DNA from: Acaryochloris sp. IP29b_bin.137
GTDB lineage: Bacteria; Cyanobacteriota; Cyanobacteriia; Thermosynechococcales; Thermosynechococcaceae
DNA: 48,438 nucleotides
Assembly: GCF_028285745.1 (NCBI RefSeq)
Contig: NZ_JANQOP010000122.1
Location: forward strand, 1 to 48,438
Direction of reading: 5' to 3'
Shown here: one piece after another, positions 196 through 32,256 of the stretch
How the letters are laid out: each line of letters opens with the position of its first letter
Numbering within the stretch: the first letter of the stretch is position 1
Translations under genes and position numbers: made by a program
Notes under the pieces: generated by a model
The model's database searches: none
What the model was told of the DNA's origin: nothing
The model's input: the letters and a program-made list of their open reading frames with translations, nothing else

Positions 196-3100
196 CTAAC
201 ATATATCTTTGCCCGTCTGTGAGATTTTTAAGTTATTTTTCTGATAATCATCTAACCAGACGCAACCTTTATCTAAAAGAGTGTCTAACTCTAAGTTCCA
301 AATAACAACTCTGTTATCCATACTTGCAGCAATAAGGCTTTTTCCATCAGAGTTAAAACTTATGTCTTGAAAGGTATCCTTATTACTTTTAAAGCTAGCA
401 AGTGATCCACCCGCTCGATTCCAAAGTTTAACTGTGTTATTAGTAGTAGATGCAATTATTCTTCCATAGGGACTAAAGGCTACACTAGTAATACTTTCCT
501 CTTGCCCATCAATTGCAAATAGTTTTTCCCCTTCAAGATTCCATATCTGAATGGTTTTATCTTCACTAGCTACAGCAACTATTTCGCCATCAGGGCTGAA
601 GTTGATATCATTTATGGTTTGTTCAAGTTTTCCTAAAGTTATGGGTCGCTCTTGATCCAATTGCCATAACTGTAATTTATTCTCCTCAGTAGCTAAGGCA
701 AGCTTTTGGCCATCTGGACTAAATATCAGGTGGGTAAACACTTCATTCGGACTTTCAATGACAGTAGGTTTGTCTAATTTTTCGATATTCCAAATCTTAA
801 CTGTTCCATCCCAACTTGCTGATGCAAGATTCTTACCATTTGGACTAAACCTTAGGCTAGTAATAGTATTATTGTGACCCCCTAGTGTTTTGATGATTCT
901 TTCCTTTTCAAAACTCCAGAGTTTGACAGTGTTATCTGAACTAGCTAATGCCAGAAGTGGGTTATGAGCTTTTGGCGCAAAATCAAGTCGATAATGGCCT
1001 ACTAAGTCTTTTAAGATAAAATATTCTCCATTATTCAGTTTCCAAACCTTTACTAATTTATCTAAGCTAACAGATGCAAGATATTGACTATCAGGACTAA
1101 AACGAACTTGAAGAACTGGCATAGTATGCCCATCTAAAATCTTGAGGAATGGGTTCTCTTTTAAGTTCCAAAATCTTAAGACATTATCATCTCCCCCTGA
1201 AATAATAAGGCTTCTACCTGTATTAGTACTGGAACTCAGACTGTGAACTGTTCCTGTATGTCCTTTAAAAGTTTGAAGAAGCGTGCAACTCAGAACATTA
1301 TTCTGTCGACCAAGGCTCCAGAGTTTGACAGCCTTATCTTCACCTGCTGACGCGATTTGGTTATCTGAAAGGAATTTTATCTCATTTATGGATGCATTAT
1401 GATCCACATCACAGAACTGCAGTTCTTGACCATCCTTGCTCCAAAATCTGATTTTTCCCTCCTGGGTACCAGAAGCAACAATTTGACCGTCTGGACTAAA
1501 AGCTACGCTATTTACCGAGTGATTATGATTGAGAGTTTTTATAGTTTGACCATTACTCAGATTCCATAGCTTTACAGTGTTATCTAAGCTTGCAGAAGCA
1601 ATGGTATTTCCTTCAAGGTCAAAGCTAGCACTAAAAACTGTATTTTTATGGTCCATTAAAGTATGAATTAATCTGCCATCTTCATTCCAAATACGAATCA
1701 TTTTATCATCACTTGTTGAGGCAATATTTTTACCATCGCGACTAAAAACGACATTGTGTACTGGTTGAGTATGAGATTTCTCCCAGATGATCCTACCGCT
1801 GGTGTCCCAGAGTTTAACGGTGCCATCTATGCTGCTAGAAACGATCTTTTTCTGCCCTAGATTAGGGCTGAAATTCACACTGGTAACTCTGTCTTTATGG
1901 GCTATCCATTTTGCCTTAAGTTTTCCATTATTTCCCCAGATCCTGATAGTCCTATCATCACCTGCTGAGGCAATGGATTGCTCATCAGGGCTAACACTAA
2001 TACCTCTGATAGGAGCACTATGTCCTTCTAAGCGATTAAGTTCTTGTATTTCATAAACAGATTTAGCTAGAACAGCTACAGTTCTGGTATGAGTAGTATC
2101 AGACAACAGATGAAGTTTATGAAGCATCCAAGGCATCGGACTTTGGAGCTTTTTTCCTGCTTTCATACTGGTTACTAGTGCTTCAATCTGCTTATTTTCA
2201 GCAAGATACGAATTAGACAAAGCCGTTAAAGAATTGATTTCACCCTGTATCGTTTGACTCAATTGCACTAGGAAACTGATAGCTGCGGTACTTGCTATCA
2301 CTGCCGAAAAAATTGCAATTTTGGCCCGTCTCTGCGCTTTTTGACGCAATATTCTTTCATATGCCAAATTATCTTGAATTGCGCTATCGCTAACTTCCAC
2401 CAACTCTAGTAGTACTTCATCTTGTCCTAGCTCTTGAGCATCCTGGCTGTTTAACCATCTTTTTGCTTCAGCGAGTTGAGCTTCATCGAGCAAACCATGG
2501 TTACTCGATTTTTCTAACCAAATCCAATCCTCTACTCGACGCATCAATTGCCTACGAGTTAACTCCGCCTCCCGACGTTCACTGAGCCATAGCTGTAAAG
2601 TTGGCCAGCCGTCAATCAGAGCTTCATGGGCGATATCCACTTTCCTCCCCACGTCTTCTGATGTTCCACTAAGGGTAAGCAACCGTCGATCAGCAAGAAA
2701 TAATAAAGTCTCATTGAACAACTGGATATCATCATCCAGTGTCAGTAATTGTTCGACAGACTGTTGCCGACGAGTATCCGCTCTTCCTTCACCAAATTGA
2801 ATTAAGCGCAGGAAAATTCGGCGTATAATTGGCAACTGCTTTTGATCTAAAGCAGCTATAGTAGCATCAGCCCGATTAGCAATTGCAATCTGCAAACCTG
2901 TGCGGTTACTACCATCGAAGTTTTTATAAGCTTTATCAAGGACCAAAGATTCATAAGCACTAAGGTGTAGAATTTGTTCTTCTACTTTCTCCCATAACAA
3001 AACTAATGTCTCTTGAATTAAGGGCAAAACGCCTGGTTCGCCAACTGCATCTGCCACCAATCGCTCTGCCAAAATAGCCTCAACGAATACCCCTGCATCT

Positions 3101-4116
3101 TTAGCGGGTTGAATAATTGCCTCGTGTAAGTTTGAAGGATTTAGCGGGATGATCTCCATTCGAGAAAACTGAATCTTTGGCCACAATGGCGATTCCATCA
3201 AGTCAGGATAGAAATCAGCTCGAACAGTCAAAATGATATAAAGATTGGGGATCTCAATCAGGCGTAGTAATGCTTGTTGGAAGTTGGCTTTTTCTTGTTC
3301 TGCCTGCGCAAATACTTCTTCAAATTGGTCTACAACCAATAGCATTCGCTTTGCTTCAGGCTCGACCATTAATACTTCTGTGATGGCCAGATTAGGATCA
3401 ACTAAATCACTTCCCAAAGTAGCTTTCAATGTACTTAATGGAGATTTACCAGGACGGATATCCAAAACTAACCAATTCCCAGTTCCAAACAGGTCACTTT
3501 GGCGCAAAGCAGGAATGAGTCCTGCAAAAACAAGTGATGACTTCCCACTCCCCGAAGGACCAATCATCGTAATCAAGGGGAACTGGTGTAAGCGTCTTTT
3601 AGCATCCTCTATTTCGTTATCACGCCCAAAAAAACAGTCACTGTCTACTTCACTAAAAGGCACCATGCCAGGGTAGGGGCATGGTGGCCTTGAGGGTAGA
3701 TCAGAAATCCCAGGCTTTAACTGGTTACAGAGCCTTGCAATAACATCTTTCCTATCACTGGGATCAGTTGCATTAAGATGAACAACCGTATTTAAGCGAG
3801 TGGGTAGTTGAACTGGTTCAAGAATCAAGGGAATGACTGGCCAAGTTCCAGTTTCCAAACCGTAAGAGCTACTAAGTCTTTCTATAAAATTGTTAGCGAC
3901 TTCAGCCATATAGGCATTAGAAATTATCAGCACAACCCATTTACTTTCTTGAATCGCCCGTTCAATTGCCAGTAACTTTGGAAGTCCCAGATTGAAGTCA
4001 TCTTTGGTATGGCACTGAATATCAGCTTGTTCCAAAGCAGATAATAAGTATCCTTCTACCCAAGCACGATCTGCATCCGCATAAGAAATAAACAGATCAT
4101 ATTTTTTAACTACCAT
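196..4116 (-). CDS. TIR - STAND NTPase - WD40 repeat protein (NLR-like sensor)
   Basis: This 1306-residue protein has a TIR domain at about 5-130 (YDLFISYADADR start, IISNAYM strand). A STAND/AAA_16 NTPase follows, with an FFGRDNE entry motif near 162, Walker A GPSGSGKSS at 186-194 and Walker B LLVVDQFEE at 259-267. Residues about 599-620 form a hydrophobic segment, probably a membrane anchor. From about 695 onward there are 14 WD40 repeats, enough for two seven-bladed propellers, and the tail contains GCVWLDDY. Proteins of this layout are STAND signalling ATPases in which the repeats sense a ligand and the ATPase oligomerises to switch on the N-terminal effector domain. The TIR glutamate is at 79, one residue off the usual spacing, so NADase activity is doubtful and an adaptor role is possible. 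It lies 340 bases downstream of a caspase-TIR gene on the same strand. Domain calls are firm; function is inferred. Confidence 0.9.
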   Translation of the reverse strand: MVVKKYDLFISYADADRAWVEGYLLSALEQADIQCHTKDDFNLGLPKLLAIERAIQESKWVVLIISNAYMAEVANNFIERLSSSYGLETGTWPVIPLILEPVQLPTRLNTVVHLNATDPSDRKDVIARLCNQLKPGISDLPSRPPCPYPGMVPFSEVDSDCFFGRDNEIEDAKRRLHQFPLITMIGPSGSGKSSLVFAGLIPALRQSDLFGTGNWLVLDIRPGKSPLSTLKATLGSDLVDPNLAITEVLMVEPEAKRMLLVVDQFEEVFAQAEQEKANFQQALLRLIEIPNLYIILTVRADFYPDLMESPLWPKIQFSRMEIIPLNPSNLHEAIIQPAKDAGVFVEAILAERLVADAVGEPGVLPLIQETLVLLWEKVEEQILHLSAYESLVLDKAYKNFDGSNRTGLQIAIANRADATIAALDQKQLPIIRRIFLRLIQFGEGRADTRRQQSVEQLLTLDDDIQLFNETLLFLADRRLLTLSGTSEDVGRKVDIAHEALIDGWPTLQLWLSERREAELTRRQLMRRVEDWIWLEKSSNHGLLDEAQLAEAKRWLNSQDAQELGQDEVLLELVEVSDSAIQDNLAYERILRQKAQRRAKIAIFSAVIASTAAISFLVQLSQTIQGEINSLTALSNSYLAENKQIEALVTSMKAGKKLQSPMPWMLHKLHLLSDTTHTRTVAVLAKSVYEIQELNRLEGHSAPIRGISVSPDEQSIASAGDDRTIRIWGNNGKLKAKWIAHKDRVTSVNFSPNLGQKKIVSSSIDGTVKLWDTSGRIIWEKSHTQPVHNVVFSRDGKNIASTSDDKMIRIWNEDGRLIHTLMDHKNTVFSASFDLEGNTIASASLDNTVKLWNLSNGQTIKTLNHNHSVNSVAFSPDGQIVASGTQEGKIRFWSKDGQELQFCDVDHNASINEIKFLSDNQIASAGEDKAVKLWSLGRQNNVLSCTLLQTFKGHTGTVHSLSSSTNTGRSLIISGGDDNVLRFWNLKENPFLKILDGHTMPVLQVRFSPDSQYLASVSLDKLVKVWKLNNGEYFILKDLVGHYRLDFAPKAHNPLLALASSDNTVKLWSFEKERIIKTLGGHNNTITSLRFSPNGKNLASASWDGTVKIWNIEKLDKPTVIESPNEVFTHLIFSPDGQKLALATEENKLQLWQLDQERPITLGKLEQTINDINFSPDGEIVAVASEDKTIQIWNLEGEKLFAIDGQEESITSVAFSPYGRIIASTTNNTVKLWNRAGGSLASFKSNKDTFQDISFNSDGKSLIAASMDNRVVIWNLELDTLLDKGCVWLDDYQKNNLKISQTGKDIC

Positions 4117-4456
4117 GATGATTTACCTGTCTTGCGGATTAATCATTATTTGCTAGTGATTTCTCTAAATAGTCAGCAGAATATTAAAATAATTTAGAAA
4201 CTAGATTGTCATGCAAACTAGTTCTACTTTTTTGTTGCGAAAAAATCTTATGCTAAAGAATATATAATCACTAATACTAAAAATCATGGCTTTTCATATA
4301 CAATCGACAATATGGCTACAGCAATAGCTTTTCATAGATTAATTAAAAAATTCACATAATACTACAAAGATACTATAAAATCTTTATGAATAAGTTAGCA
4401 AAAATATATATCTATAAAAAGCATTTAAAAAATCATTTTTTAAATGAATCACCTTA
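4117..4456. other. AT-rich spacer between caspase-TIR and TIR-STAND-WD40 genes
   Basis: Very AT-rich, with no open frame of protein-like composition and no strong hairpin. It is long for an operon spacer, so the downstream WD40 gene could have its own promoter here. I cannot fix promoter boxes with confidence. Confidence 0.4.
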
Positions 4457-5698
4457 TTAGCGGTGGAATAGTGGACCCTTTAAAGCTTTGACTAGACGCT
4501 CAAACTCACTCTCAGCTCGACGAGCATGAGTCAGGTCTAGCATTGCCAACATACTAAGTCTTATAGGTAAGCGATTATAATCAATAGGTGTAGTCTTTAA
4601 AGGTAACAGGCGGTAATTGCCTTCCTGAATACCCATTGTTTGTGCAAGAACATTTTCAAACTCTGCCATGCTATCTGCTAAATAGTTTTCTGATAACACA
4701 ATAAGAATTCGTTTAGACTGAGTAATACCACGTTCAATGTTAACTACACGAGCTACACCTGGTTCATCCACATCACCAGAAATAGCAATCTTTAAACCAG
4801 CGTTTTTTAGTCGCGGCACTAAAGTTTCCCAAACCCAAATGGCATCAGGCTCTTTATCTATATAGCTAATGTAGGCATCATATCGGAAGTCTTCTTCTAT
4901 CGTAGGGACAATTCCTCGTTGACCACCTAAGTAAAGTGAAACAGGAATATTTTCTTCTAATTCTGCTTTGAAGATTGGATGCTGATTATGCTGATCTTGA
5001 GTCACTTTAGGTTGGAGATACTCAAATAAGTCAAAAATACGGATCACCCCGTCATTACTGACAATCTCCCCTTTTAAACCAGCTAACAAATGCTGTGTAA
5101 AAAGACTATTCTCTGAACCAGAAAGGAAATAAGAAAACTCATTTGCACGTGAAGAAGCAAGAATTGCTCTACCCAAACCTTGCTTTAAAAGATCATAATA
5201 ATCCGCTGACAGTTCTTCCTTCAATGCAAGTGCACATTCTTTCTTTGGCTGACCAATTCCGCCAGCATGGCAACAATCAAGAATTGTTAACATTTTCTTA
5301 GCTGGAATTGCTTGTAATTTTCGAGTCAGTTCAGCACTCGAAATTGCTGTTTTACTGAAAGACTCTTCTGACTTACAATTAGTATCAACTGTTAGTAAGT
5401 ATTCTCCTGAATGGGGGCCAGATTCTATTTGGCCCCCATGACTAGATATATATAACAGAATAGTTGATTTCGTGTTACTTCTATTAGCAATTATCTCCAA
5501 AGTACCTAGTATCGAGTTTTTGGTTGCTTGATTATTTAGAAGTAAGTATACATTATCATTTATGTATCCACAGTATTTTTGACTAATAAGCAAATTATAA
5601 ATATCTTGAGCATCATTTATGACAGTTGCAGGCAACGAACTAATGTGTTTATAGTTAGAAATACCTATTATTAGAGCATAAGCATTATCAAATTGCAT
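4457..5698 (-). CDS. Caspase-like (C14) protease fused to a TIR domain
   Basis: The 413-residue protein opens with a caspase/metacaspase-type peptidase domain (about 5-255). The catalytic His is in YISSHGG (H87) and the catalytic Cys in DCCHAGG (C143). A TIR domain follows at about 272-408, starting YDAYISYIDKE, with a helix-proximal Glu (E348) placed like the catalytic Glu of TIR NADases. Both protease residues are intact, so it should be an active cysteine protease. The fusion suggests protease activation by TIR-driven assembly, or a TIR that makes or binds an NAD-derived signal. No signal peptide or membrane helix is visible, so it is cytoplasmic. The next gene downstream on the same strand encodes a TIR-STAND-WD40 protein, the obvious partner. 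Local sequence is AT-richer than the core genes, which suggests transfer. I see no clear Shine-Dalgarno at the chosen ATG. Confidence 0.9.
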   Translation of the reverse strand: MQFDNAYALIIGISNYKHISSLPATVINDAQDIYNLLISQKYCGYINDNVYLLLNNQATKNSILGTLEIIANRSNTKSTILLYISSHGGQIESGPHSGEYLLTVDTNCKSEESFSKTAISSAELTRKLQAIPAKKMLTILDCCHAGGIGQPKKECALALKEELSADYYDLLKQGLGRAILASSRANEFSYFLSGSENSLFTQHLLAGLKGEIVSNDGVIRIFDLFEYLQPKVTQDQHNQHPIFKAELEENIPVSLYLGGQRGIVPTIEEDFRYDAYISYIDKEPDAIWVWETLVPRLKNAGLKIAISGDVDEPGVARVVNIERGITQSKRILIVLSENYLADSMAEFENVLAQTMGIQEGNYRLLPLKTTPIDYNRLPIRLSMLAMLDLTHARRAESEFERLVKALKGPLFHR

Positions 5699-6235: not shown

Positions 6236-6607
6236 TTAAGAGGTATTTGCCGCTGCCCAAAGTTCTGGATCATCCAACATAAACTGGAGTAAATGCTCCC
6301 AATCAACAGGGTCATGAATAATCGGTTAGCCATTGGTTCTGGATTAGGCTTTCCCAGTGGCTTGATTGATGGGTTGAGAGCTACAAACAGAAGTCAGATC
6401 AAGATGATTTTTTGGGTTTGCTCACATTTTCAATGCTTGCGGTTGAATAACCCAGTTTTTAGACCCAATGTCGAGGATAAAGTCGCTTTGACCGCCTTCA
6501 TTGGAAGTTGCCGCATTGTGGTTAATTCGTCTGTCAGCGTTTAGCTTTACAGGATGAGCGGAGGTTCCGAAAGGGGTATAGTCCATAAAGCCCAGATGCG
6601 ATCGCAC
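6236..6607 (-). pseudogene. Possible decayed gene remnant downstream of bcsA
   Basis: On the minus strand, protein-like stretches appear one after another but in shifting frames. An open frame of 61 codons ends at 6422. It is followed in the same frame by about 24 more sense codons after the TGA, and then by a segment in another frame (6236-6325) containing DPVDWEHLLQFMLDDPELW before a TAA. The composition looks coding, but stops and frame changes interrupt it. It overlaps the last bases of the cellulose-synthase-like gene. I do not recognise the family. It could be a relic or chance open frames. Confidence 0.2.
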
Positions 6608-8660
6608 GCAACGTATCCCATTCCGTCGGTAGACGAGGCAACTGCCAATTCTGGGAATTACAGTAGGTGAAATTCACGAGCTTCCATAGGGTGGGGGGAT
6701 CAACTGCCTTAAACATGCATCCAAAGATCGTATTATTGCGTTGTTGATGACGGATTTCGGCCATCAGTCTCAGACTCGTGTGGGGAACTTCAACTTTAAC
6801 GGTCTCAGATATCTCTAAAGACACAGGAAGGTGAGTTTGCAGACGGCAGCCAGCCTCCGAGATATCCAGAAATTTCCCTTCGTAAACCTCGCCTGTTGGA
6901 GTGGTAATTTGACAAGCCTCGCCAGAAAAGACTCTAGGGTGTCCTCGATCATGATCAGCACTAACACCCGCAATCAAAGCTGTAGCTAAAAGCAAAATGT
7001 TCGCCTGTGCCCAAATCAAATAAATCCAATCGAGATCTCCGCCTGAAGAATGGAACATACCAAAAACGATAGCGAGAATGCTTAAGATTAGGAGAAATAA
7101 GATATGAGACAGACTGCGAACATTAAAGTGGATGCCATAACTATCTAACTGTTTACTGGTGACATGAAAGGGCTCAGATATTTGAGAATAAAAGAAAATT
7201 TTGAGCACCACTTTAAAAACATGAAATCCCTGTAGCAAGTTGTAGATAATCAGCAACAACACACTCCCCCGCATCCAGCTCATGACAATAATGGAAAGAG
7301 AATAGCTATACAAGGTATAGGTACTGATTTCTGACAGGGTAATATCAATACTTTTCCAACCTAACAATAGGTACAAAATCGGAGACAGAAAACTCAGAGT
7401 TTTGAGAATCTCCTCCAGCCAATACAAGGTTCCTGACAGATAGGTAAACCGCTGCATCATGCTCAGCCCTGACAACCACAACGGGTTATGCTGGCTGATC
7501 ACCATTCGCAACGTTCCTTCTGCCCAACGCATGCGTTGTTTTAGATATTCATTAATATTGTTGGCTGCACATCCCACACTCAATAACTCATTCAGATAAA
7601 CTGTTTTATAGCCCCGAGCTTGCATCAAAATACCCGTGGCATAATCTTCAACAATGGTATTGAGCGGAATACCACCAATCGCCTCAAGATGCTGGCGGCG
7701 ATAGAGAACTGAACTGCCCGAACACACCACTGCGTTGACGGCATCTCGGGCAGGTTGAATAACTTGGTAGAATTCAGTCTGCTCATCGGCGATAAAACGC
7801 CCTCCCAAATTTTTTTGGGGTGGGTCAGGATTATAAAATTTTTGGGGCGTCACCACCATGGATACATGGTTATCTGCCTGAAAAAATCCAATAGTTCGCT
7901 CTAAAAAATGGTTGAGCGGAATAAAGTCTGCATCAAAAACCACAACAATTTCACTATTCGTTTGTTGTAAGGCATGGTTGAGATTCCCAGCTTTTGCATG
8001 TTCATTGATCGGTCTCGTTAAGTAATGGCAACCCCATTTTTTCGCCAGGGCTTCCATTTCAGGGCGCTGCCCATCATCCAAAAGCCAGATATGCTTTTGC
8101 TGCTTGGGATACTTGATCGACTTGCAGCCAATCAGCGTTCGCTCCAACATGGTTGTGGGTTCATTATAGGTGGGGATAAAAATATCAACGCTCAGTTTAT
8201 TGGCCCGTTGCCCCCTCTGATGATATTGATCGGCTTCTGCTCGCCGATTGGGTGCCTGTAGGATCAAATAGTTATTGGTCCAGCTATTCAAAATGCTGAG
8301 TAGTTCATAGGCAAAAAGCCCAATGCAGAGTAAGGCATCTGGCCCTTGCAAACTGAGGGTATGGGTAGAGCGCCAGACCAGATACTTAGACTGCACAACA
8401 ATGAGTAAAACAACCAGCAAACTTTTGATCCAGTTTGGCGGTTGTGTCGGCAGTAAAACCCTTAATATTCCCAACAGCAAAATCGCCAAGAAAATTGGCT
8501 TAGTTGTCAAAATAGCTTGATAAATCGTTTGTGCTTTGGGTCCAATTGAAATGACGTCATAAATGATAAATGCAGAAGTAAGCAGTAACAGTAAACATTT
8601 GCTACCAGCAACCCTGTAATCTTGTGCAAGTGACCGTAGACTGTTGGTCACCGTTTGCAT
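6534..8660 (-). CDS. bcsA: Cellulose-synthase-like glycosyltransferase 2 with PilZ domain
   Basis: This 708-residue membrane protein is a processive family-2 glycosyltransferase of the BcsA type. It is expected to polymerise UDP-glucose into beta-1,4-glucan and push it through the inner membrane. N-terminal helices (about 20-130) precede the GT2 core, which has DDG at 195-197, DAD at 243-245, VED at 337-339 (the TED site) and QRMRW at 375-379 (the QxxRW site). Further helices lead to a PilZ domain from about residue 568, with RGHPR (RxxxR) and DISEAG (DxSxxG), the two c-di-GMP-binding motifs. Cyclic di-GMP control is therefore expected. No bcsB, bcsZ or other bcs gene is adjacent. In cyanobacteria such stand-alone enzymes make extracellular cellulose linked to aggregation or biofilm. 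Another beta-glucan product cannot be excluded. Confidence 0.88.
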   Translation of the reverse strand: MQTVTNSLRSLAQDYRVAGSKCLLLLLTSAFIIYDVISIGPKAQTIYQAILTTKPIFLAILLLGILRVLLPTQPPNWIKSLLVVLLIVVQSKYLVWRSTHTLSLQGPDALLCIGLFAYELLSILNSWTNNYLILQAPNRRAEADQYHQRGQRANKLSVDIFIPTYNEPTTMLERTLIGCKSIKYPKQQKHIWLLDDGQRPEMEALAKKWGCHYLTRPINEHAKAGNLNHALQQTNSEIVVVFDADFIPLNHFLERTIGFFQADNHVSMVVTPQKFYNPDPPQKNLGGRFIADEQTEFYQVIQPARDAVNAVVCSGSSVLYRRQHLEAIGGIPLNTIVEDYATGILMQARGYKTVYLNELLSVGCAANNINEYLKQRMRWAEGTLRMVISQHNPLWLSGLSMMQRFTYLSGTLYWLEEILKTLSFLSPILYLLLGWKSIDITLSEISTYTLYSYSLSIIVMSWMRGSVLLLIIYNLLQGFHVFKVVLKIFFYSQISEPFHVTSKQLDSYGIHFNVRSLSHILFLLILSILAIVFGMFHSSGGDLDWIYLIWAQANILLLATALIAGVSADHDRGHPRVFSGEACQITTPTGEVYEGKFLDISEAGCRLQTHLPVSLEISETVKVEVPHTSLRLMAEIRHQQRNNTIFGCMFKAVDPPTLWKLVNFTYCNSQNWQLPRLPTEWDTLRAIASGLYGLYPFRNLRSSCKAKR

Positions 8661-9139
8661 TACTCAACACTCATGCTGTAAAACATCGACATTAAAAAAG
8701 CACAAGCCTCTTTCTTCGGTATCTATCATCTAGAAATTGAGGGAAAACAAGCGATTAATCCGCAATATTTTGGTTAGCGTACCCGAATAAAAAAATAATC
8801 CGGCAGAGATGTAACTGAGCAACATCCTATCCACCACAAACTAAAAGCCATCTCTACCGTATGGCGCGGCTTTATCTTCATAAAGGACTGTACTGGCACT
8901 GGAATCAATACGGCAAAGTCATATCTCAACGCTGTCACTTGTAACAGGAAGGACAGAGCATTGTCTTGTTTACCCACTTCACCGACTAGCCCACTGCCAT
9001 GGCATAACGATAGAAGCCAACAAAAATGAACTAGCCAGGCTGGAGAGGGCTAGCGTAGGATGGTCATGGCTTTCTTTAGCTGAAATAATTCGCTGTTAAA
9101 ACCTACAAAGTCTACTCATTAAGGTCAACATCCTGTTGG
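8661..9139. other. Intergenic region between divergent bcsA and sbcC-like genes
   Basis: This stretch separates two divergently transcribed genes and should hold both promoters. A 67-codon open frame on the minus strand (8774-8977) shows no recognisable family and poor protein character, so I did not call it. CTAGCC and GGCTAG flank a ten-base loop near 9030-9055, a weak hairpin. Confidence 0.35.
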
Positions 9140-11881
9140 ATGGAAGTTCTCTCTGTTACCCTCAAAAACTTTAAAGCCCATCGCGATCGCTACTATGAAT
9201 TTCGACCGGGGGCCAATGCTATTTGTGGTGAAAATGGGTCCGGAAAAACCAGCATCCTGGAAGCCATTGCCTGGGTCCTGTTCGATCACAGTGAATATAA
9301 GCGGGCCGAACTGATTAGCGTTGGTGCCAAGAGCGCTCAAGTGAGTGTCAGTTTTGTCTCTCACCTAGATGGGCGAGTGTATGATGTCCGGCGCTGCACC
9401 AGTCGGGGCTATGAAGTCCATGATCCACAACTCAAGCGCAAGCTAGAACTGAAAAAACTGGATGATGTGCGTTGCTGGCTCTGTGAACATCTGGGAGTGG
9501 GAGTCCATACAGAACTCGCCAAATTATTTGCAGAAACCATCGGTATTCCTCAGGGCACCTTTACGGTGGATTTCCTTAAATCCGCGGGCGATCGCAAAAA
9601 GGTATTCGATCCTATTCTCAAGGTGGAAGAGTATAAGCAGGCTTACGATCAAGCTCAAAAATTAACCAGCTACGCCCAGGCCCAAGTCCAACAGCTAGAG
9701 CATCAGTTGCACAGCTACGAACAGCAGTTGGAGGGCTGGGAAGACCTAAAACAACAACAGAAAACCCTTGCCCAAACCATCCTGCAGCAGCAGTCCCAGC
9801 TCAAAGCCCTATCTGAGCAGATGGCCGAGCACCAGACGGAACTGAAAGCACTCAAACAGCAAGACCAAGCCATCCAAGTCTTGGACAAACAAGTTCAGCA
9901 CTTGCAAACCCAGTGGACGAGTAAACAAGAAATCCTCCAGCTACTAGAGAGCAATTGGCAGCAGGCGGAACAAGCGGTTCAGATTTGTCGCCAGCATCGT
10001 CCCCAGTTTCAGGCTTATCAGCAGGCCCAAGAGACTCTGAAGACGCTGGCTCAGCAACAAAAGCAACGACAGCACCTGTTGCAGGAGCGCGATCGCATCC
10101 AAAATACCCTCCGGGATCAGCAAGTCGCGATGTCCCAACACCAAGGCCAGCTCACCACCTTTGCCAAGATGGAGGCTGAACTCCAGGACTGGCAAACCAA
10201 AGTCCCGCAGCAGCAGCAGCTCGAACAAGAAAAGATCACCTGTCAACAAGCACTACAAACCCTCACCACTGAACAACACCAGCTCGCCAGACTGCAAGAG
10301 CAGCTGCAACAACAGCAGCAACAGCGAGATGCGCTGGAGGAAACGATTAGCCAACTGGCGGCCTTGGAGCCTCAAGTTGCGGCCATTCCCAGTCTGGAAG
10401 CCCAGCAGCAGAACATGCAAGAGCGGCTTGGACGGATTACCGCCGCCCAGCAATTTGCCACGGAACTACAAGATGTGATCGCCGCAGCAGAACCTCAACA
10501 GCAGCAGTATCAGCAACAAGTCGGCAAAGCCAAGGCCCTCCTCCAAAGCCTATCCCTCACCAAAACTCAGACCACTCAATTGACCAAGGTTTTGGACCAA
10601 GGGGCAGCTTTAACTACCCAGATGATCCAGCAACTGCAAACGGCTTTTGCCGACATTATTGATCCACAGGCCGTCACCAAGCTGAATCAGCAGCTCCAGC
10701 AGATTAAAACCCAACTCAAAGCCGCCCAAAAAGCGCAAACGCAATGGCTGATGCTAGATGCAAAACAGCAACAGCTCGCAGAGCTGAATCAAGCGATCGC
10801 ATCCTTGCAGCAGGAGTGCGATCGCATCCAAGTGATCCTTAATCAAGAACCCCAACTCCAGAGCCAGCTCACCCACCTAGATACTCAACTAACAGCTCTC
10901 AACGATCCTAAAGGCCATGTCCGCATCTTGCAGCAACAGCTCCAAGGGGCAACCCAACTGGAAGCAGAGATCAACCGTCTGCAGCAGGCTTGTCAGCGCC
11001 ATGAGCAGTCCCTGGCAACGATTGAAGCTCAGGTCGAGGCCTTAGGCGATCTAGCAGCCCAAGTTGAGGCCCAACAGCTGATCCAGCAAGAACATCAGGA
11101 TGTTTATCAGCTCTATTTACGCCACCGAAATCAGGCTAATGCTTTTAAAGAGCTGGATCAGCAACGCCGAAGTGCGATCGCAGCTCAAACTCAACTCCAG
11201 GCTCAGCTCACCGAGGCTCAAGCTCAATGGCAGGAAAAGCTGACAGTGCATAACCCTGAACGATTAGCTGAATTAAGTCAAACTTACGAACACCTCCAGC
11301 GACAACAGGCTCAACTGCAGGGGGGGCTGGCACCGCAACAGGCTCAGCTCCAGTATTTGGACCAACAGCTACAAGCCAAACAAGCCCTCGCCCAAGAACG
11401 CGATCAGGTGCTGGTAGCGCTAGCAGACAAGCACCAGATCTCACAATTTATCACCGATGCTCGCAATATCTATAAGCAAAGCGGCCCCAGGATCACTAAA
11501 TTCTATCTGACAGAAATTTCCTGGGAAGCGGATCGTCTCTATCGGGAACTGTTGGATCGACCTGATGTGGCCTTACAGTGGACCGAAGATTATGAAATTC
11601 AGGTGCAAGAGCAGGGACATTGGCGAAGTTTCAAAAGTCTGTCCGGGGGGGAGCAAATGTGTGCAGCTTTAGCGGTACGTCTAGCCCTGCTGAAAGTCTT
11701 AGTCGATATCAATATTGCGTTTTTTGACGAGCCCACGACCAATATGGATGAACTCCGTCGTCGGCAGTTGGCCGAAGCATTGGGACATCTCAAATCGTTT
11801 CATCAGCTGTTTGTGATCAGCCATGACGACACGTTTGAAAGCGTTACGGAAAATATTATTCGGGTTGAGAGAGTCCGTTAA
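9140..11881 (+). CDS. sbcC: SbcC/Rad50-like SMC-family ATPase
   Basis: The 913-residue protein has the split ATPase head of SbcC/Rad50: N-terminal LSVTLKNFKAHRD and Walker A GENGSGKTS (30-38), then a long coiled coil. The C-terminal half-head carries the ABC signature LSGGEQ near 834 and Walker B AFFDEPTTNMD near 858-868. Partners of this family (SbcD/Mre11) process DNA ends and hairpins. The coiled coil is extremely rich in Gln and Leu. I see no CxxC zinc hook in mid-protein; the only CxxC-spaced pair (CWLC) is close to the N-terminus, about residue 112. At 913 residues it is somewhat shorter than classic SbcC. No sbcD is adjacent. It may be a true SbcC with a degenerate hook or a related coiled-coil ATPase. 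Confidence 0.8.
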   Translation: MEVLSVTLKNFKAHRDRYYEFRPGANAICGENGSGKTSILEAIAWVLFDHSEYKRAELISVGAKSAQVSVSFVSHLDGRVYDVRRCTSRGYEVHDPQLKRKLELKKLDDVRCWLCEHLGVGVHTELAKLFAETIGIPQGTFTVDFLKSAGDRKKVFDPILKVEEYKQAYDQAQKLTSYAQAQVQQLEHQLHSYEQQLEGWEDLKQQQKTLAQTILQQQSQLKALSEQMAEHQTELKALKQQDQAIQVLDKQVQHLQTQWTSKQEILQLLESNWQQAEQAVQICRQHRPQFQAYQQAQETLKTLAQQQKQRQHLLQERDRIQNTLRDQQVAMSQHQGQLTTFAKMEAELQDWQTKVPQQQQLEQEKITCQQALQTLTTEQHQLARLQEQLQQQQQQRDALEETISQLAALEPQVAAIPSLEAQQQNMQERLGRITAAQQFATELQDVIAAAEPQQQQYQQQVGKAKALLQSLSLTKTQTTQLTKVLDQGAALTTQMIQQLQTAFADIIDPQAVTKLNQQLQQIKTQLKAAQKAQTQWLMLDAKQQQLAELNQAIASLQQECDRIQVILNQEPQLQSQLTHLDTQLTALNDPKGHVRILQQQLQGATQLEAEINRLQQACQRHEQSLATIEAQVEALGDLAAQVEAQQLIQQEHQDVYQLYLRHRNQANAFKELDQQRRSAIAAQTQLQAQLTEAQAQWQEKLTVHNPERLAELSQTYEHLQRQQAQLQGGLAPQQAQLQYLDQQLQAKQALAQERDQVLVALADKHQISQFITDARNIYKQSGPRITKFYLTEISWEADRLYRELLDRPDVALQWTEDYEIQVQEQGHWRSFKSLSGGEQMCAALAVRLALLKVLVDINIAFFDEPTTNMDELRRRQLAEALGHLKSFHQLFVISHDDTFESVTENIIRVERVR

Positions 11882-11902
11882 AGTGCTGACACCCTTCAGA
11901 AC

Positions 11903-12391
11903 TTAGGGAGCGGCCCATTGGGTCACAGGTGCAGCAATTTGCTGTTGCTGTTGGTAAGCCACGACTTCCTGCTGACACATGCTGAGGCTATCTTGCTCGC
12001 TACTCCCCACCGATGGGAGGCGATGCATTTGCGTTAGGGGAACCTCGACTTCAATCACATTTTCATGGGGCAAACCGAGAGATAGGACCTCTAAGCGCTG
12101 GTTCTTGGCTGTGCCAGTGAAGCAGCTGAACTCAGATTGCGGATAGTAAAACGCACCCGTCACTTTCTGACCCTGCTTTTTGAAGACAATATAACCCTGA
12201 CCAATTTGATTGGCCTGGTCAGAATCCCCATATAGATAGGTACCATCAGCCAAAGGTTGAGTGCTACGAGACGCAGCGATATTGGTGGGTTCTGCAATGG
12301 CTATACCTGTGCTGCCTAAAACCAGGGCACCAACAGCCAGTACTGTTTTGACGGAACCCGAGAGAATTGAAGCTTGGGGAAATGTTTTCAT
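11903..12391 (-). CDS. Secreted protein of unknown function
   Basis: The 162-residue protein begins with a clear signal peptide: basic start, then VLAVGALVLGSTGIAIA and a likely cleavage after AIAEP. The mature part is small and hydrophilic, with two cysteines (one in FSCFTGT, one in MCQQE) that could form a disulphide, and a Gln-rich, Pro/Ala-ending tail. It is probably periplasmic or exported. It converges on the sbcC-like gene, with 21 bases between the stops. I do not recognise a named family and assign no function. Confidence 0.7.
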   Translation of the reverse strand: MKTFPQASILSGSVKTVLAVGALVLGSTGIAIAEPTNIAASRSTQPLADGTYLYGDSDQANQIGQGYIVFKKQGQKVTGAFYYPQSEFSCFTGTAKNQRLEVLSLGLPHENVIEVEVPLTQMHRLPSVGSSEQDSLSMCQQEVVAYQQQQQIAAPVTQWAAP

Positions 12392-12583
12392 CTTTAAAGT
12401 CTCACTACCACTTACTTAATCTTCAGTCACAAACCGAGGAAAAACCGTGATCTTGTTATGTCTAAACCGTGTTTTAAATCAATCATGGGCGTGATCAAAA
12501 TCACTTTTTACGCCGTGCCGACATGCATCAAGCGTTTCGCTGATTCGATGCAATCTGAGAGGGCCTGTCGGATCATAGAACCT

Positions 12584-12663
12584 GTCGTATATTCACTCCG
12601 TAAAATTACTGATTCATACTGTTGCAGGTCTTCCACTGACCTCACAATAGTGAATATACGGAC
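12584..12663. repeat. Inverted repeat, 14-base arms
   Basis: GTCGTATATTCACT at 12584-12597 is matched by AGTGAATATACGGAC at 12649-12663, the reverse complement apart from one extra G. The spacer is about 51 bases. It could be a protein-binding pair, a short mobile-element relic, or the base of an RNA fold. Confidence 0.55.
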
Positions 12664-12892
12664 CTAATCGAGGCAAAGCGATCGGGGCCTGAGCATTGCT
12701 ACCGCATCTAATCAAACTTCAGCAAATATACGGTTGTTCTATTCTCTTCAATCTGAAAAATTTGCAATTCAAGATTAGAGAAGAAAACAAAAATGTATCA
12801 AGTTGTAAACTAGAATTTAGAGCGATTTTTTCCTAGTAAAAAGACAGGAAATACACGTTTTATCAGGAACACTAACGATTCATTACCCTATT

Positions 12893-12925
12893 GATCTTGA
12901 TCACACTTGTTAAGTGTTCAAGATC
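12893..12925. repeat. Strong hairpin / interrupted palindrome
   Basis: GATCTTGA then ACACTT (12893-12908, with TC bulged between) pairs with AAGTGT and TCAAGATC (12912-12925) around a three-base loop. That is 14 paired bases. No T-tract follows on either side, so it is not a standard terminator. It lies about 185 bases upstream of the gene at 13109 and may be an operator or RNA element. Confidence 0.6.
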
Positions 12926-13108
12926 ATTAGAAGTCTTGATGTACGTTACAGCACAGAGATGGGCAAAAGAAGAATATAACCTTGTGAGTTAGATTCCTCA
13001 GCGAATTTAACGCTAGGTCAGGTGATATCGACAAGAGTACGTTCGCTGTAATTTCGCTTACAACCGCTTTATTCTCTATCACTCTATCTTTTGAGGAGGG
13101 TAACCCCC

Positions 13109-26086: not shown

Positions 26087-28657
26087 ATGCTCGGTCGAAC
26101 CCTCGGTGGACGATATCAAGTTCAGGACACCCTTGGTGGTGGTAGTTTTGGTCAAACTTACCTGGCCATAGATATTCATCGACCCGATCGCCCACAATGT
26201 GTAGTCAAACATCTCAAGCCAGCAAAACGAGATCCCGAGTTTCTGCCAAAAGCTCGGTCTCTATTTGAGCGGGAAGCCGTCATGCTGGAGAAATTGGGGA
26301 GCCATGATCAGATACCGCGCTTGTTAGCCTACTTCGAAGAAAAACAAGAGTTTTATTTGGTTCAGGAATACATCCCCGGCCCCTTACTGCGCAAAGAATT
26401 ACCCCAGGGCTGTCGATGGTCAGAAGAACAAGTCACCCAACTCTTGCTGGATATCTTGTCCATCTTGGCCTTCATCAATCAATTCAATGTCATCCATCGC
26501 GATATCAAACCCGAAAATATTATCCGCCGCCAGCAGGATGGTCGACTAGTCCTCATTGACTTTGGCGCAGTCAAGCAGCTGAGGAAGGAACTGAGCAGCG
26601 ATCCTCATCAGCCGCTGCCAGTGGGAGGGACGATTGCTATTGGGACGCCTGGCTACATGGCTCCTGAACAGGCCCAAGGCCGGCCCCGCGCCAATAGCGA
26701 TCTCTACGCTTTAGGGATGATTGGCATCGAGGCCTTTATTGGCAAAAATCCGACCCAATTTACCCAAACAGCCCAGGGCGAAATTGACTGGCAGGAAGAA
26801 GTGCCTGTGAGCCCAGCCTTAGGGGATGTGCTGCAGCAAATGGTACGCTATCACTTTCAATATCGATATCAATCGGCGGAAGAGGTTTTAAAGGATCTGC
26901 AAGCTCAACCGTCGTCAGGATGGTTCAAAAAAGTCGGTAAAATGCTGCGATCGCCCGTACAAAACCTGTGGGCCGACGATCCTGAGCTCACTGAAAAACG
27001 CAGCAACCCAACCACCCCTCAAATTGTCCGGAACTCTCTAGGATCAGATGCCCTCTCCGCAGATCCAGAAAGTGCGACACAACCCTTTGCAGAAGTGACC
27101 AGCCAGGTTTTTATTAGTGCCTTAAACCGTGAACCTGAGCTGCAAGTGGCCAAGGATTTATTTGAAGCGATTAAAGAAGCAGGCTATCAGCCCTTTATGT
27201 CCACGCAGAGTTTGGAATTAAAAGAGAATTGGGCGCAGCATATTGATCACGCCCTCAAAGCTTGTGACTTTTACATCTTGCTTTTATCGCGGGCCTCGGC
27301 CCATAGCGAGCTGATGCTACAGGAAGTGAGAGCCGTCAAAGCGCTGCATCAGAGCCGTTCGAAACAGCGACCCCAGATTGTACCCATTCGGGTTGATTTG
27401 CCGATGGATGGTTCCTTGAATTACGAATTACGAGGCTATTTGCATCGGTTACAGCAGCGTATTTGGCGGTCTGCCAGTGATACCTCCAACCTCGTCCAAG
27501 ATATTTTGGCCGCCTTAGAGGCCAGCGAGTCAGTTGCCAGAACCACTGGACAAGTCAGTTCCGGTTCGTTTCCAACAGTGCCGCCCCCTAAGCAGGGATC
27601 GGATGCGCCCCCGTTACCCGTCGCCGAGCCAGAATTGCCTGAGGGGCAGGTGAATGTAGCGTCCGCATTTTATATTGAGCGACCGCCGATAGAGTTGCGC
27701 TGTGCTGAAACCGTTATCCAACCAGGTTCGTTAATTCGAATTAAAGCCCCTCGGCAAATGGGCAAAACCTCACTGATGGCCCGAATTCTCCATGAAGCCT
27801 CCAGTCAAGGATTGAATACGGTGTCCTTGAACTTACAATTGGCAGATGGCAAGGTGTTTACCGATCTAGATAAGCTTTTGCAGTGGCTCTGCGCCAGTGT
27901 CAGCCGCCGATTGCGCTTGCCCAACCGGATTGCCGAGACTTGGGATGATATTTTTGGTAGCAAATACAACTGCACCGCTTATTTTGAAGAATATGTGCTG
28001 CCTGAATTGGATGGTCCGCTAACATTAGCCCTGGATGAAGTCGACCGAGTATTCGAATACCCCGAAATTGCTAGCGACTTCTTTGGCCTGCTCCGTGCCT
28101 GGCACGAGGAAGCCAAAAACCAAGAAATTTGGCAAAAGCTACGGCTGATTGTGGTCCATGCGACAGAGGTTTATATCCCTCTCAATACCAATCAGTCCCC
28201 CTTTAATGTCGGCTTACCCATTGATTTACCCGAATTTTCCTTGGCTCAAATTAGTCAATTGGCAAAGCTTCACAACCTAGATTGGGATAAAGACCAAATC
28301 ACTCAGCTCCAAACCCTCATCGGTGGACATCCCTATCTGACCCGGCTGGCCTTGTATCACGTTGCCAAAGGGGATATAACTGTTGATCAACTGCTAGAAA
28401 CGGCACCGACAGAAGCAGGACTCTTCCGCGATCACCTACGGGGCCACTGGTGGAATTTGCAGCAGCACGCCCAGTTGGCTAAAGCCTTTATTGCCGTCGT
28501 CACGTCAGATCAGGCAATTTCTCTCGAACCATCAGTGTTGTTTAAGCTGCATAGCTTAGGTCTCATTCGGCTGGTCGGCAACGGGGCGCAACCCCGCTGC
28601 GATTTGTATCGTCAGTATTTTGCGACGGTGGCTACTGACAAAGAGGCCAACGAATAA
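26087..28657 (+). CDS. Ser/Thr kinase - TIR - AAA_35-like ATPase fusion
   Basis: The 856-residue protein joins three modules. Residues 1-275 are a Hanks-type kinase: glycine loop LGGGSFGQTY (16-25), ATP-binding Lys 41, HRDIKPEN with D139, DFG at 158-160, and APEQ. Residues about 336-475 are a TIR domain (SQVFISALN start), with E413 near the NADase Glu position. Residues about 525-850 are a P-loop ATPase of the AAA_35 kind, with FYIERPPIE before it, Walker A APRQMGKTS (K560) and Walker B LALDEVD (D650, E651). All kinase residues needed for catalysis are present. No membrane helix is seen. It precedes an ATPase-TM-WD40 gene by about 60 bases and the two are probably cotranscribed. The kinase-TIR-ATPase order is unusual. 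Confidence 0.9.
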   Translation: MLGRTLGGRYQVQDTLGGGSFGQTYLAIDIHRPDRPQCVVKHLKPAKRDPEFLPKARSLFEREAVMLEKLGSHDQIPRLLAYFEEKQEFYLVQEYIPGPLLRKELPQGCRWSEEQVTQLLLDILSILAFINQFNVIHRDIKPENIIRRQQDGRLVLIDFGAVKQLRKELSSDPHQPLPVGGTIAIGTPGYMAPEQAQGRPRANSDLYALGMIGIEAFIGKNPTQFTQTAQGEIDWQEEVPVSPALGDVLQQMVRYHFQYRYQSAEEVLKDLQAQPSSGWFKKVGKMLRSPVQNLWADDPELTEKRSNPTTPQIVRNSLGSDALSADPESATQPFAEVTSQVFISALNREPELQVAKDLFEAIKEAGYQPFMSTQSLELKENWAQHIDHALKACDFYILLLSRASAHSELMLQEVRAVKALHQSRSKQRPQIVPIRVDLPMDGSLNYELRGYLHRLQQRIWRSASDTSNLVQDILAALEASESVARTTGQVSSGSFPTVPPPKQGSDAPPLPVAEPELPEGQVNVASAFYIERPPIELRCAETVIQPGSLIRIKAPRQMGKTSLMARILHEASSQGLNTVSLNLQLADGKVFTDLDKLLQWLCASVSRRLRLPNRIAETWDDIFGSKYNCTAYFEEYVLPELDGPLTLALDEVDRVFEYPEIASDFFGLLRAWHEEAKNQEIWQKLRLIVVHATEVYIPLNTNQSPFNVGLPIDLPEFSLAQISQLAKLHNLDWDKDQITQLQTLIGGHPYLTRLALYHVAKGDITVDQLLETAPTEAGLFRDHLRGHWWNLQQHAQLAKAFIAVVTSDQAISLEPSVLFKLHSLGLIRLVGNGAQPRCDLYRQYFATVATDKEANE

Positions 28658-28719
28658 GGGTGATATTTTGAGACTATTGGCTCGTCCCCTAAGGACTACC
28701 CACCCGTTATGGTTTGTAT

Positions 28720-31700: not shown

Positions 31701-32256
31701 TACCCAGCCGGTGTGGGCCATTCGGTTTAGCCCTGATGGCAAACAACTGGTGACGGCTGGCAAAGACGGACAAATTAAAGTCTGGACGCCTTTGGGCAAG
31801 GTATTGAGCCAATTTGATGCCCAGCAAGGTTGGCTGAGCGATGTTCGTTTTAGCCCTGATGGCAAACAGCTAGTGACGGCTGGCAAAGCAGGCACTGTTA
31901 AATTTTGGTCTATCCAGGGCCAATTGCTGCACCAGTTTCAGAGTCATCCCAATGATATTCTTCGCCTAGTGCTCAGTCAGGATGGCCAGCGCCTCGCAAC
32001 CGCAGGTCAAGATGGCATCGTCAAAATTTGGACCTTCACAGGGCAACAATTAGCAGAATTCATGGGACATCAAGGGGCTGTATATAGTCTGCAATTTGCA
32101 GCGGATAGCCAGTCTTTAATGACAGTCGGCAAAGATGACGTTGTTCGGATTTGGCAAACCGGCACTCTTGCTCAACTGTTACATCGCGGCTGTCAATGGC
32201 TCCAGACTTATCAACAGCGACATCCTGATGCTACTAATGCTTGTCCTCAACGTTAA
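28720..32256 (+). CDS. AAA_35-like ATPase - transmembrane - WD40 repeat protein
   Basis: I start at ATG 28720; a TTG two codons earlier is also open. The product is 1178 residues. It has an ATPase domain with TARQMGKSS (Walker A) at about 54-62 and [11 protein letters not shown] near 149. A single membrane helix (about 470-495, [20 protein letters not shown]) is followed by 14 WD40 repeats from about 573, and a GCQWLQTY tail. The ATPase is related in motif to that of the upstream gene. One would expect a membrane-tethered STAND-like sensor whose propellers lie on one side of the membrane and whose ATPase lies on the other, unless the helix is only a hydrophobic linker. It is very like the WD40 protein at 196-4116 in its back half, although the ATPase front ends differ. 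Confidence 0.9.
31720..31893 (+). repeat. Near-identical tandem WD40 units
   Basis: Bases about 31721-31770 and 31845-31893, spaced 123 bases apart, are almost the same: both encode [14 protein letters not shown] with nearly the same codons. Spacing equals one 41-residue WD repeat. Other repeats in the gene are much more diverged at DNA level, so this pair looks recently duplicated or converted. Confidence 0.75.

Follow-up and report, generated by a model that had tools for sequence, protein, structure and literature searches.

Why are a caspase-like protease and a STAND ATPase encoded side by side, each with a TIR domain? The question is raised by a contig of 48,438 nucleotides from Acaryochloris sp. 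IP29b_bin.137 (NZ_JANQOP010000122.1), analysed here over its whole length, which we call the window. According to the ORF list, both genes lie on the minus strand, and the caspase-TIR gene (4457-5698) stands upstream of the TIR-nSTAND1-WD40 sensor gene (196-4116), with 340 bp between them. The features of the locus are as follows.

4457..5698, minus strand: caspase-TIR protease gene, 413 aa (ORF; Pfam Peptidase_C14 E 3e-19, TIR_2 E 2e-11)
4955..5680, minus strand: Peptidase_C14 caspase domain, aa 7-248, with H87 (5438-5440) and C143 (5270-5272) (Pfam, alignment)
4469..4888, minus strand: effector-side TIR, aa 271-410; Glu column E348, in 'FEN' (TIR profiles, alignment)
4117..4456, no strand: gap between the genes, 340 bp (ORF coordinates, consensus scan)
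196..4116, minus strand: TIR-nSTAND1-helix-WD40 sensor gene, 1306 aa (ORF, domain models)
3712..4110, minus strand: sensor-side TIR, aa 3-135; Glu column I78, degenerate (TIR profiles, alignment)
2518..3678, minus strand: nSTAND1 NTPase, aa 147-533, with Walker A GPSGSGKS (3538-3561) and Walker B VVDQFEE (Pfam, motifs)
2263..2319, minus strand: predicted transmembrane helix, aa 600-618, Kyte-Doolittle 2.01 (hydropathy)
292..2049, minus strand: 14 WD40 repeats, about aa 690-1275 (domain models, motif count)

Architecture of the two proteins

The initial annotation described the upstream protein as a caspase-like protease with an intact His/Cys dyad fused to a TIR, and alignment confirms that H87 and C143 are the catalytic pair. 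The catalytic His and the catalytic Cys are each present in 29 of 30 aligned caspases. The AlphaFold model of the caspase-TIR protein (mean pLDDT 80.5) matches MALT1, metacaspases, caspases and the TIRs of TLR1 and MyD88 in the PDB. The likeness of both TIR profiles to TLR and MyD88 structures was dropped as specific evidence, since control TIRs (profile A8) have the same structures as best matches. At E 0.01 the protease protein is matched by Peptidase_C14 and TIR models only, with no CARD among them, and its sole NCBIfam match at E 1e-5 is NF047832 (EACC1-associated caspase), at 97.9 bits and thus under the curated cut-off of 140.

The neighbour was correctly read as a same-strand TIR-STAND-WD40 protein with 14 repeats, as borne out by the ORFs, the domain models and a motif count that spaces the repeats by about 41 aa. 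The membrane helix, by contrast, was absent from that first description; it is predicted in 29 of 30 sequences, and in the window its N-terminal flank is rich in K/R. The model of sensor residues 1-682 has a mean pLDDT of 81.7, and the structures that the STAND model matches in the PDB include the plant NLR RPP1 and Apaf-1 (rank 11), with low TM-scores. Domain models match a TIR on each of the two window proteins, the predicted structures match TIR structures, and the two TIRs align to each other with 31% identity (E 5e-11). The window sensor TIR has a glutamate, E79, one residue past the aligned Glu column.

A consensus scan found no terminator-like site in the 340-bp gap. It holds two promoter-like sites, one per strand, although regional counts equal the shuffled mean and are uninformative. 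The window spans the entire contig, which ends 195 bp beyond the sensor gene, so that the sequence downstream of the sensor is not seen.

The pair recurs as neighbouring genes

The proposal that the two genes are neighbours elsewhere holds. Among 36 distinct genes with this C-terminal effector TIR, 27 lie within 1 kb of a same-strand TIR-STAND gene, which is downstream of the effector gene in 25 cases and upstream in two, with a median gap of 123 bp. The set of 36 leaves aside duplicates (L066, L099, L103, L108, L109, L111), contig-cut or broken loci (L089, L113, L045) and a plasmid locus found later (L122). Two cases outside the 36 are of interest: in G156 a contig break truncates a caspase-TIR gene that adjoins a TIR-NB-ARC-TPR gene, and on a conjugative plasmid of Calothrix brevissima NIES-22 the two genes are separated by a single other gene. 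A plain listing of the named hosts contains filamentous cyanobacteria, Thiotrichaceae and Chloroflexota. Metagenome-assembled genomes contribute several of the rows and may contain binning errors (e.g. the Humibacillus MAG, L070).

Nine of the 36 effector-TIR genes have no such neighbour. A different TIR gene adjoins on the opposite strand in L064 and L102, a TIR-nSTAND1 gene lies farther away in L074 and L101, and L078 has a TIR-TPR gene. L082 carries a split version, with a free-standing TIR beside nSTAND1-WD40 and caspase-TIR genes, and no TIR-STAND partner was seen near the genes of L065 (a short contig), L077 and L079. Conversely, for seven of the 34 nSTAND1-type sensor rows no same-strand effector gene lies within 1 kb: a second copy in L072, those of L074 and L101, two next to broken genes (L113, L119), and L118 and L120, where none was seen. 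L119, with a caspase lacking a TIR beside a TIR-nSTAND1 gene, was considered as a counter-example and rejected; by eye, its C-terminus diverges from that of L115 where L115 enters the TIR, and the caspase is probably a broken gene.

Co-occurrence by genome points the same way. Among the best-scoring candidates of 388 Cyanobacteriales genomes, 19 genomes hold both TIR types, three only one (2/1) and 366 neither (Fisher p 5e-29). As several genomes share one genus (five of g152 among 22), the test was repeated by genus, giving 11/2/1/135 (Fisher p 7e-14). Places in the table were assigned by hand, and the sensor had to reach at least 150 bits with profile A4, a cut-off that excludes TIR neighbours in G587 and G677; an effector TIR (G552) and a sensor (G515) with internal stops were counted in. 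The genome searches scored at most the best 4 or the best 10 candidates per genome, and in one search all first-look candidates, so that TIR-rich genomes may be under-counted.

Parts are exchanged around the TIRs

The part preceding the effector TIR is a caspase in 27, a CHAT protease in six, a trypsin in two and a divergent caspase-like domain in one of the 36 genes (L068, assigned by eye). In a tree of 42 effector-TIR rows, the starred branches force at least four changes of protease label, which supports the view that the protease is swapped while the TIR stays. On the partner side, the NTPase is nSTAND1 or, in G156, NB-ARC, and the sensor part consists of WD40, TPR or other sequences. TIR distances of the partners correlate weakly in a mirror-tree comparison (r 0.26, p 0.02, 26 pairs), but the partial correlation after nSTAND1 distances is 0.08 (p 0.23). 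This indicates no TIR-specific co-evolution, and the mirror-tree was not used as support.

Docking, NAD+ cleavage or a small signal

The NADase glutamate column separates the two sides of the pair. It holds E in none of the 34 nSTAND1-type sensor TIRs, in 33 of 37 effector TIRs (the exceptions being L075, L077, L078 and L079) and in 19 of 21 other TIRs of the fetched loci, one exception being the free-standing TIR of L082. Loss of the glutamate in all 34 sensor TIRs fits docking better than a Thoeris-type small signal, which upholds the earlier distinction from Thoeris arrangements. A Thoeris-like scheme, in which a nucleotide signal made by the sensor TIR activates the caspase protein through its own TIR, has a precedent in type IV Thoeris, where N7-cADPR is reported to activate a caspase-like protease (PMC12847820, in its available sections). 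Here, however, the supposed signal maker is the very protein without the catalytic residue, and neither window protein has a PADLOC Thoeris match at E 0.01 (2023 library, which may lack type IV); we regard this scheme as very unlikely.

Retention of the glutamate in most effector TIRs leaves room for an enzymatic role on that side. The TIR of the caspase protein could itself be an NADase effector, with the dead sensor TIR nucleating an assembly that completes composite sites, so that the output would be NAD+ loss and the protease secondary or regulating. SARM1 is a known case of composite TIR active sites, and in locus L086 the paired caspase lacks both catalytic residues while its TIR is kept, with the glutamate. 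Nevertheless, 33 of 37 effector TIRs have lost the tryptophan four residues before the glutamate, which 20 of 21 other TIRs keep, four effector TIRs lack the glutamate altogether, and only protease folds replace the pre-TIR half in the 36 genes (with L068 assigned by eye), as though proteolysis were what counts. On these grounds, NAD+ loss appears an improbable main output.

Genomic context and biological role

Proximity to defence islands had been proposed as a check, and no signal of it was found: in a scan of flanking ORFs (150 aa or longer) that covered 109 out of 180, drawn from 22 of the 32 loci, no PADLOC family matches more than two of the 109 proteins at E 1e-15 (a plain count with no background rate). 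Single matches in the flanks include DolB and ThsB. This lack of signal favours a variant in which the same docking acts as a switch for development or stress in multicellular bacteria (e.g. for envelope stress) instead of phage defence, as do the predicted extracytoplasmic sensor part and the recurrence of a release-factor family and C1 peptidases (4 of 109 flanking proteins each). Genes of these two kinds flank the pair in L042, a hint that the chromosomal site is stable in some lineages. Yet the effector TIR occurs in only 21 of the 388 Cyanobacteriales genomes, none of the other six genomes listed for the window's genus gives a match (both among best-scoring candidates), the GC of the pair is low (0.40 and 0.37 against 0.47), and one copy sits on a conjugative plasmid. 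Together, this patchy spread, absence from congeners, low GC and plasmid copy look like those of a mobile conflict system. A developmental or stress role, which is compatible with an apoptosome-like switch, is rather unlikely, though less so than an NADase output. That the genes are merely chance neighbours, unrelated but both carrying a TIR, is close to inconceivable. This genome has more than a few TIR genes (seven TIR_2 matches above cut-off), but the 27 of 36 adjacencies and the genome co-occurrence refute this idea, and TIR profiles found no second TIR gene in the fetched stretches of seven TIR-NB-ARC loci (L092-L098).

A proposed TIR-coupled switch

We consider it probable that the pair forms an apoptosome-like, TIR-coupled STAND-protease switch. 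Both architectures, the intact protease and NTPase motifs, the conserved pairing, the swapping of proteases, NTPases and sensors around the two TIRs and the missing NADase glutamate of the sensor TIR are seen at the level of sequence. The WD40 repeats would sense a trigger, after which the nSTAND1 ATPase would oligomerise; the clustered, catalytically degenerate sensor TIRs may then dock the caspase protein by its TIR, and the resulting crowding would switch on the caspase by proximity. The active protease would cut cell proteins and lead to growth arrest or suicide, with phages as the presumed target. The TIR would thus fill the role of CARD in Apaf-1 and of the EAD or death-like domains proposed in other bacterial systems.

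More tentatively, the sensor could be a transmembrane TIR receptor, with its WD40 or TPR part outside the cytoplasmic membrane, one membrane helix, and nSTAND1 and a non-catalytic TIR inside, recruiting soluble protease-TIR proteins; the TIR would then be a pure docking domain for interchangeable proteases. We find this possible but doubtful. Such a layout would resemble an animal Toll-like receptor crossed with Apaf-1, with TIR docking as between TLR and MyD88.

Relation to known systems

Sources cited in this section are represented by their available portions. As in the Apaf-1 apoptosome, a WD40 sensor and a STAND-class ATPase share one chain with an N-terminal docking domain and have a caspase partner. 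However, the window pair uses nSTAND1 and TIR instead of NB-ARC and CARD (NB-ARC occurs in one relative), and a membrane helix, predicted between the ATPase and the WD40 repeats, sets the sensor apart from Apaf-1, which is soluble.

The principle of an adaptor domain shared by a STAND protein and a nearby protease, caspase or trypsin, has been described (Kaur 2020, PMC7159879; 2021, PMC8195603). Genes for bDLD3-caspases often stand in an operon with an AP-ATPase (PMC8195603), and an EAD8-nSTAND1-FGE protein is encoded near an EAD8 trypsin-like protease (PMC10907252). Our pair shares with these systems the single adaptor on both proteins, the gene neighbourhood and the exchange of caspase, CHAT and trypsin around a constant adaptor. 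It differs in that the adaptor is a TIR, without the catalytic glutamate on the sensor side; EADs are mostly alpha-helical (9 of 12; PMC8195603), and TIR is treated as an NAD+-processing effector in PMC7159879 and PMC8195603. From the EACC1-associated caspases (NF047832; Kaur 2020, system 4) our protein is set apart by its sub-threshold score and its TIR-STAND partner. Bacterial CARD-NLR systems, Lysobacter CARD-gasdermin and LypABC, use CARD with a trypsin-like peptidase, and gasdermin in Lysobacter; TIR docking is not named in the available text (PMC13236601). Type IV Thoeris also joins a TIR and a caspase-like protease in one system, with N7-cADPR as the coupling signal (PMC12847820, citing Rousset 2025), whereas in the window pair the caspase has a TIR in its own chain and the TIR of its partner is catalytically degenerate.

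The suggestion that the arrangement may be undescribed stands, within the literature searched, for the pairing only. TIR was listed among metacaspase-linked domains already in 2012 (PMC3501461), TIR_2 was found in one of 473 cyanobacterial orthocaspases in 2021 (PMC8283722), and the shared-adaptor principle has also been described. The available portions of these two surveys note the fusion itself but describe neither a TIR-STAND partner gene nor an adaptor role. The best reading of the pair is an adaptor-coupled STAND-protease system with TIR in place of CARD or EAD adaptors.

The family is now defined in searchable form, and the 2023 copy of PADLOC matches it only partly, at the domain level. 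If the reading is correct, bacterial TIR would be not only an enzyme but also a docking domain that joins an NLR-like sensor to interchangeable proteases, comparable to animal Toll signalling. The pair would then offer a compact two-gene system for studying directly how TIR functions as an adaptor, how an NLR-like ATPase switches on a protease, and how apoptosome-like assemblies arose.

Architecture of the pair

The caspase-TIR gene and the gene for its TIR-nSTAND1-WD40 partner lie 340 bp apart on the minus strand:

6534-8660, minus strand: upstream of the pair, a cellulose-synthase-like glycosyltransferase that also has a PilZ domain
5698-4457, minus strand: caspase-TIR gene, 413 aa; Peptidase_C14 (E 3e-19), then TIR (E 2e-11)
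4116-196, minus strand: TIR-nSTAND1-WD40 gene, 1306 aa; TIR_2 (53.5 bits, cut-off 28), nSTAND1 (E 9e-91), WD40 repeats

We refer to the C-terminal TIR of the protease as the effector TIR and to the N-terminal TIR of the STAND protein as the sensor TIR. In the window caspase, the catalytic dyad aligns to H87 and C143, which are retained by 29 of the 30 caspases in the alignment. The window sensor has both a Walker A motif (GPSGSGKS) and VVDQFEE, and 14 WD40 repeats spaced by about 41 aa (motif count); Walker A and Walker-B patterns were matched by 31 of 33 nSTAND1 ORFs, and the remaining two miss the Walker-B pattern alone. The domain matches and motifs bear out the initial annotation's description of a caspase with its dyad fused to a TIR, followed by a TIR-STAND protein with 14 repeats.

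AlphaFold models had a mean pLDDT of 80.5 (caspase-TIR) and 81.7 (sensor, aa 1-682). With Foldseek, the former matched GSU0716 (3bij), MALT1, metacaspases, caspases, and the TIRs of TLR1 and MyD88; the latter matched the plant NLR RPP1, ORC/Cdc6-type ATPases, Apaf-1, Avs4, and the TLR1 TIR, with low whole-chain TM-scores. Animal TLR structures were the best matches of both TIR profiles, with MyD88 among the next. Control TIRs match the same structures best, so this likeness was dropped as specific evidence.

The window is one complete contig of 48,438 bp. It also carries a second TIR/ATPase/WD40 pair on the plus strand: a protein kinase-TIR-AAA_35 gene (26087-28657, 856 aa) and, 56 bp on, an AAA_35-WD40 gene (28714-32256, 1180 aa). 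Other window proteins scanned include NdhH-like, PurL-like, and KaiB-histidine-kinase genes.

Recurrence and exchange of parts

The two genes form a real and recurrent pair of modular build. When the caspase-TIR protein was searched class-wide, most matches were confined to the caspase part. The three other genomes matching in the TIR part (G368, G275, and G156) each have a second TIR gene adjoining, and the TIR was therefore used as the query. One contig scan gave 28 loci, and 22 of 388 Cyanobacteriales genomes had a match, which in G685 was to its sensor TIR only. Once duplicates and cut or broken rows were removed, 36 genes, window included, had the TIR C-terminal to another domain. Of these 36, 27 have a TIR-STAND gene on the same strand no more than 1 kb away, downstream in 25 and upstream in 2 (gaps 12-930 bp, median 123); in L115, its TIR and nSTAND1 parts are separate ORFs. 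Among the 34 nSTAND1-type sensor TIRs, 27 have an effector gene on their strand within 1 kb and 7 have none there; L118 is a TIR-nSTAND1 gene without a protease neighbour. No partner was seen in the fetched stretches of caspase-TIR loci L065 (a short contig), L077, and L079.

With a sensor TIR threshold of at least 150 bits, 19 of the same 388 genomes have both TIRs, 2 the effector alone, 1 the sensor alone, and 366 neither. In the two effector-only genomes, the protease gene has another TIR gene beside it: TIR-FGS in L064 and one for a 262-aa TIR protein in L102. The annotated plasmid 2 of Calothrix brevissima NIES-22, which is typed as conjugative, encodes a caspase-TIR protein (BAY66897.1, annotated "hypothetical protein") and, separated from it by one TPR gene, a TIR-nSTAND1-WD40 protein (BAY66895.1, "WD-40 repeat-containing protein"). 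Directly upstream of this pair (L122, 2795-8934), a further caspase gene (696 aa) accompanies a WD40 gene that has an NB-ARC-like region, which makes two adjacent caspase/WD40 units.

The domain preceding the effector TIR is a caspase in 27 genes, CHAT (a caspase-related family) in 6, trypsin-like in 2, and without Pfam match in 1 (L068, with caspase-like H and C motifs judged by eye). When protease types are mapped onto the tree of effector TIRs, the caspase label requires 8 changes, at least 4 of them forced by starred branches; the corresponding numbers for CHAT are 5 and 4. The partner NTPase is nSTAND1, or NB-ARC in G156, with WD40, TPR, or another type of sensor at the C-terminus. In L082 (Acidobacteriota), separate TIR and nSTAND1-WD40 genes both adjoin the caspase-TIR gene. 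In L086 (9191-10420), both catalytic residues of a paired caspase-TIR are replaced by Tyr, and a full TIR-nSTAND1-WD40 gene adjoins it. Such a TIR-TIR link, lasting while other parts change, is to be expected of an adaptor under the "EAD principle".

Several variants were seen beside these. L072 (Halobeggiatoa, 6915-13065) has a caspase-TIR gene followed by a sensor that is both split and duplicated: two short TIR-nSTAND1 genes in tandem, plus WD40 repeats encoded in a gene of their own. L090 (1052-2716) encodes CHAT-TIR-TIR, paired with TIR-nSTAND1-WD40; its outer TIR is of effector type, and the inner one is canonical by eye, with a weak score with the sensor profile. At the sensor C-termini of the TIR-nSTAND1 or nSTAND1 proteins of L114, L115, L106, and L075, there are GUN4-like (tetrapyrrole-binding) matches that are weak and fall short of the Pfam cut-off.

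Proposed working of the pair

In the alignment of collected TIRs, the column that we take to hold the NADase Glu, anchored on the W-x-x-[FY]-E of other TIRs, is E in 33/37 effector TIRs, 19/21 other TIRs, and 0/34 nSTAND1-type sensor TIRs, where I, V, T, and A prevail. The preceding Trp is kept in 4/37, 20/21, and 3/34, respectively. The TIR of the NB-ARC partner keeps both residues; the TIR-FGS neighbour in L064 keeps the Trp and not the Glu. The nSTAND1-type sensor TIR is thus very probably not an NADase; the effector TIR may be one. The loss on the sensor side argues against a Thoeris-type route with the partner TIR as source of the signal, and agrees with the initial annotation, which had set the pair apart from such small-signal arrangements.

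The pair most likely works like an apoptosome, with the TIR as docking domain. Of 33 TIR-nSTAND1 ORFs, 30 were long enough for a hydropathy test (Kyte-Doolittle at least 1.6 over 19 residues); 29 have a hydrophobic segment between nSTAND1 and the repeats and reach 1.6 nowhere else, and K/R are richer on its N-terminal side in 25. The exception is L072, with its short STAND proteins and separate WD40 gene. The simplest reading of the hydropathy is one predicted membrane helix, with ATPase and TIR inside and the repeats outside; it is possible that the segment is instead a buried hydrophobic helix.

Distances of partner TIRs correlate (r 0.26, p 0.02, 26 pairs); once nSTAND1 distances are controlled for, the partial correlation is 0.08 (p 0.23), and these pairs give no indication of co-evolution specific to the TIR. 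By a bare count without background rate, known defence genes are not abundant in the flanks of pair loci. The patchy distribution of the effector TIR (21/388 Cyanobacteriales genomes), the low GC of the pair genes (0.40 and 0.37 vs 0.47), the absence of matches from the six other listed genomes of the genus, and the occurrence of a copy on a plasmid are signs of a mobile trait.

The caspase-TIR fusion itself is not new: TIR is one of the domains that a 2012 survey reports as linked to metacaspases (PMC3501461), and a survey of 473 cyanobacterial orthocaspases has TIR_2 with one protein (PMC8283722). The initial annotation's suggestion that the pairing may be undescribed stands for the gene pair alone: in the full-text literature as far as available, which takes in only a minority of subscription papers, no account was found of protease-TIR and TIR-STAND genes as a pair. 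An adaptor common to protease and STAND protein is described for EAD, bDLD3, and CARD systems (PMC7159879, PMC8195603, PMC10907252, and PMC13236601); the proposed adaptor here is a TIR. Judged by the features tested, the pair belongs to none of the Apaf-1, Thoeris, CARD-NLR, and EAD families and is a TIR-based variant among systems in which an adaptor couples a STAND protein to a protease; defence is a plausible, putative purpose for it.
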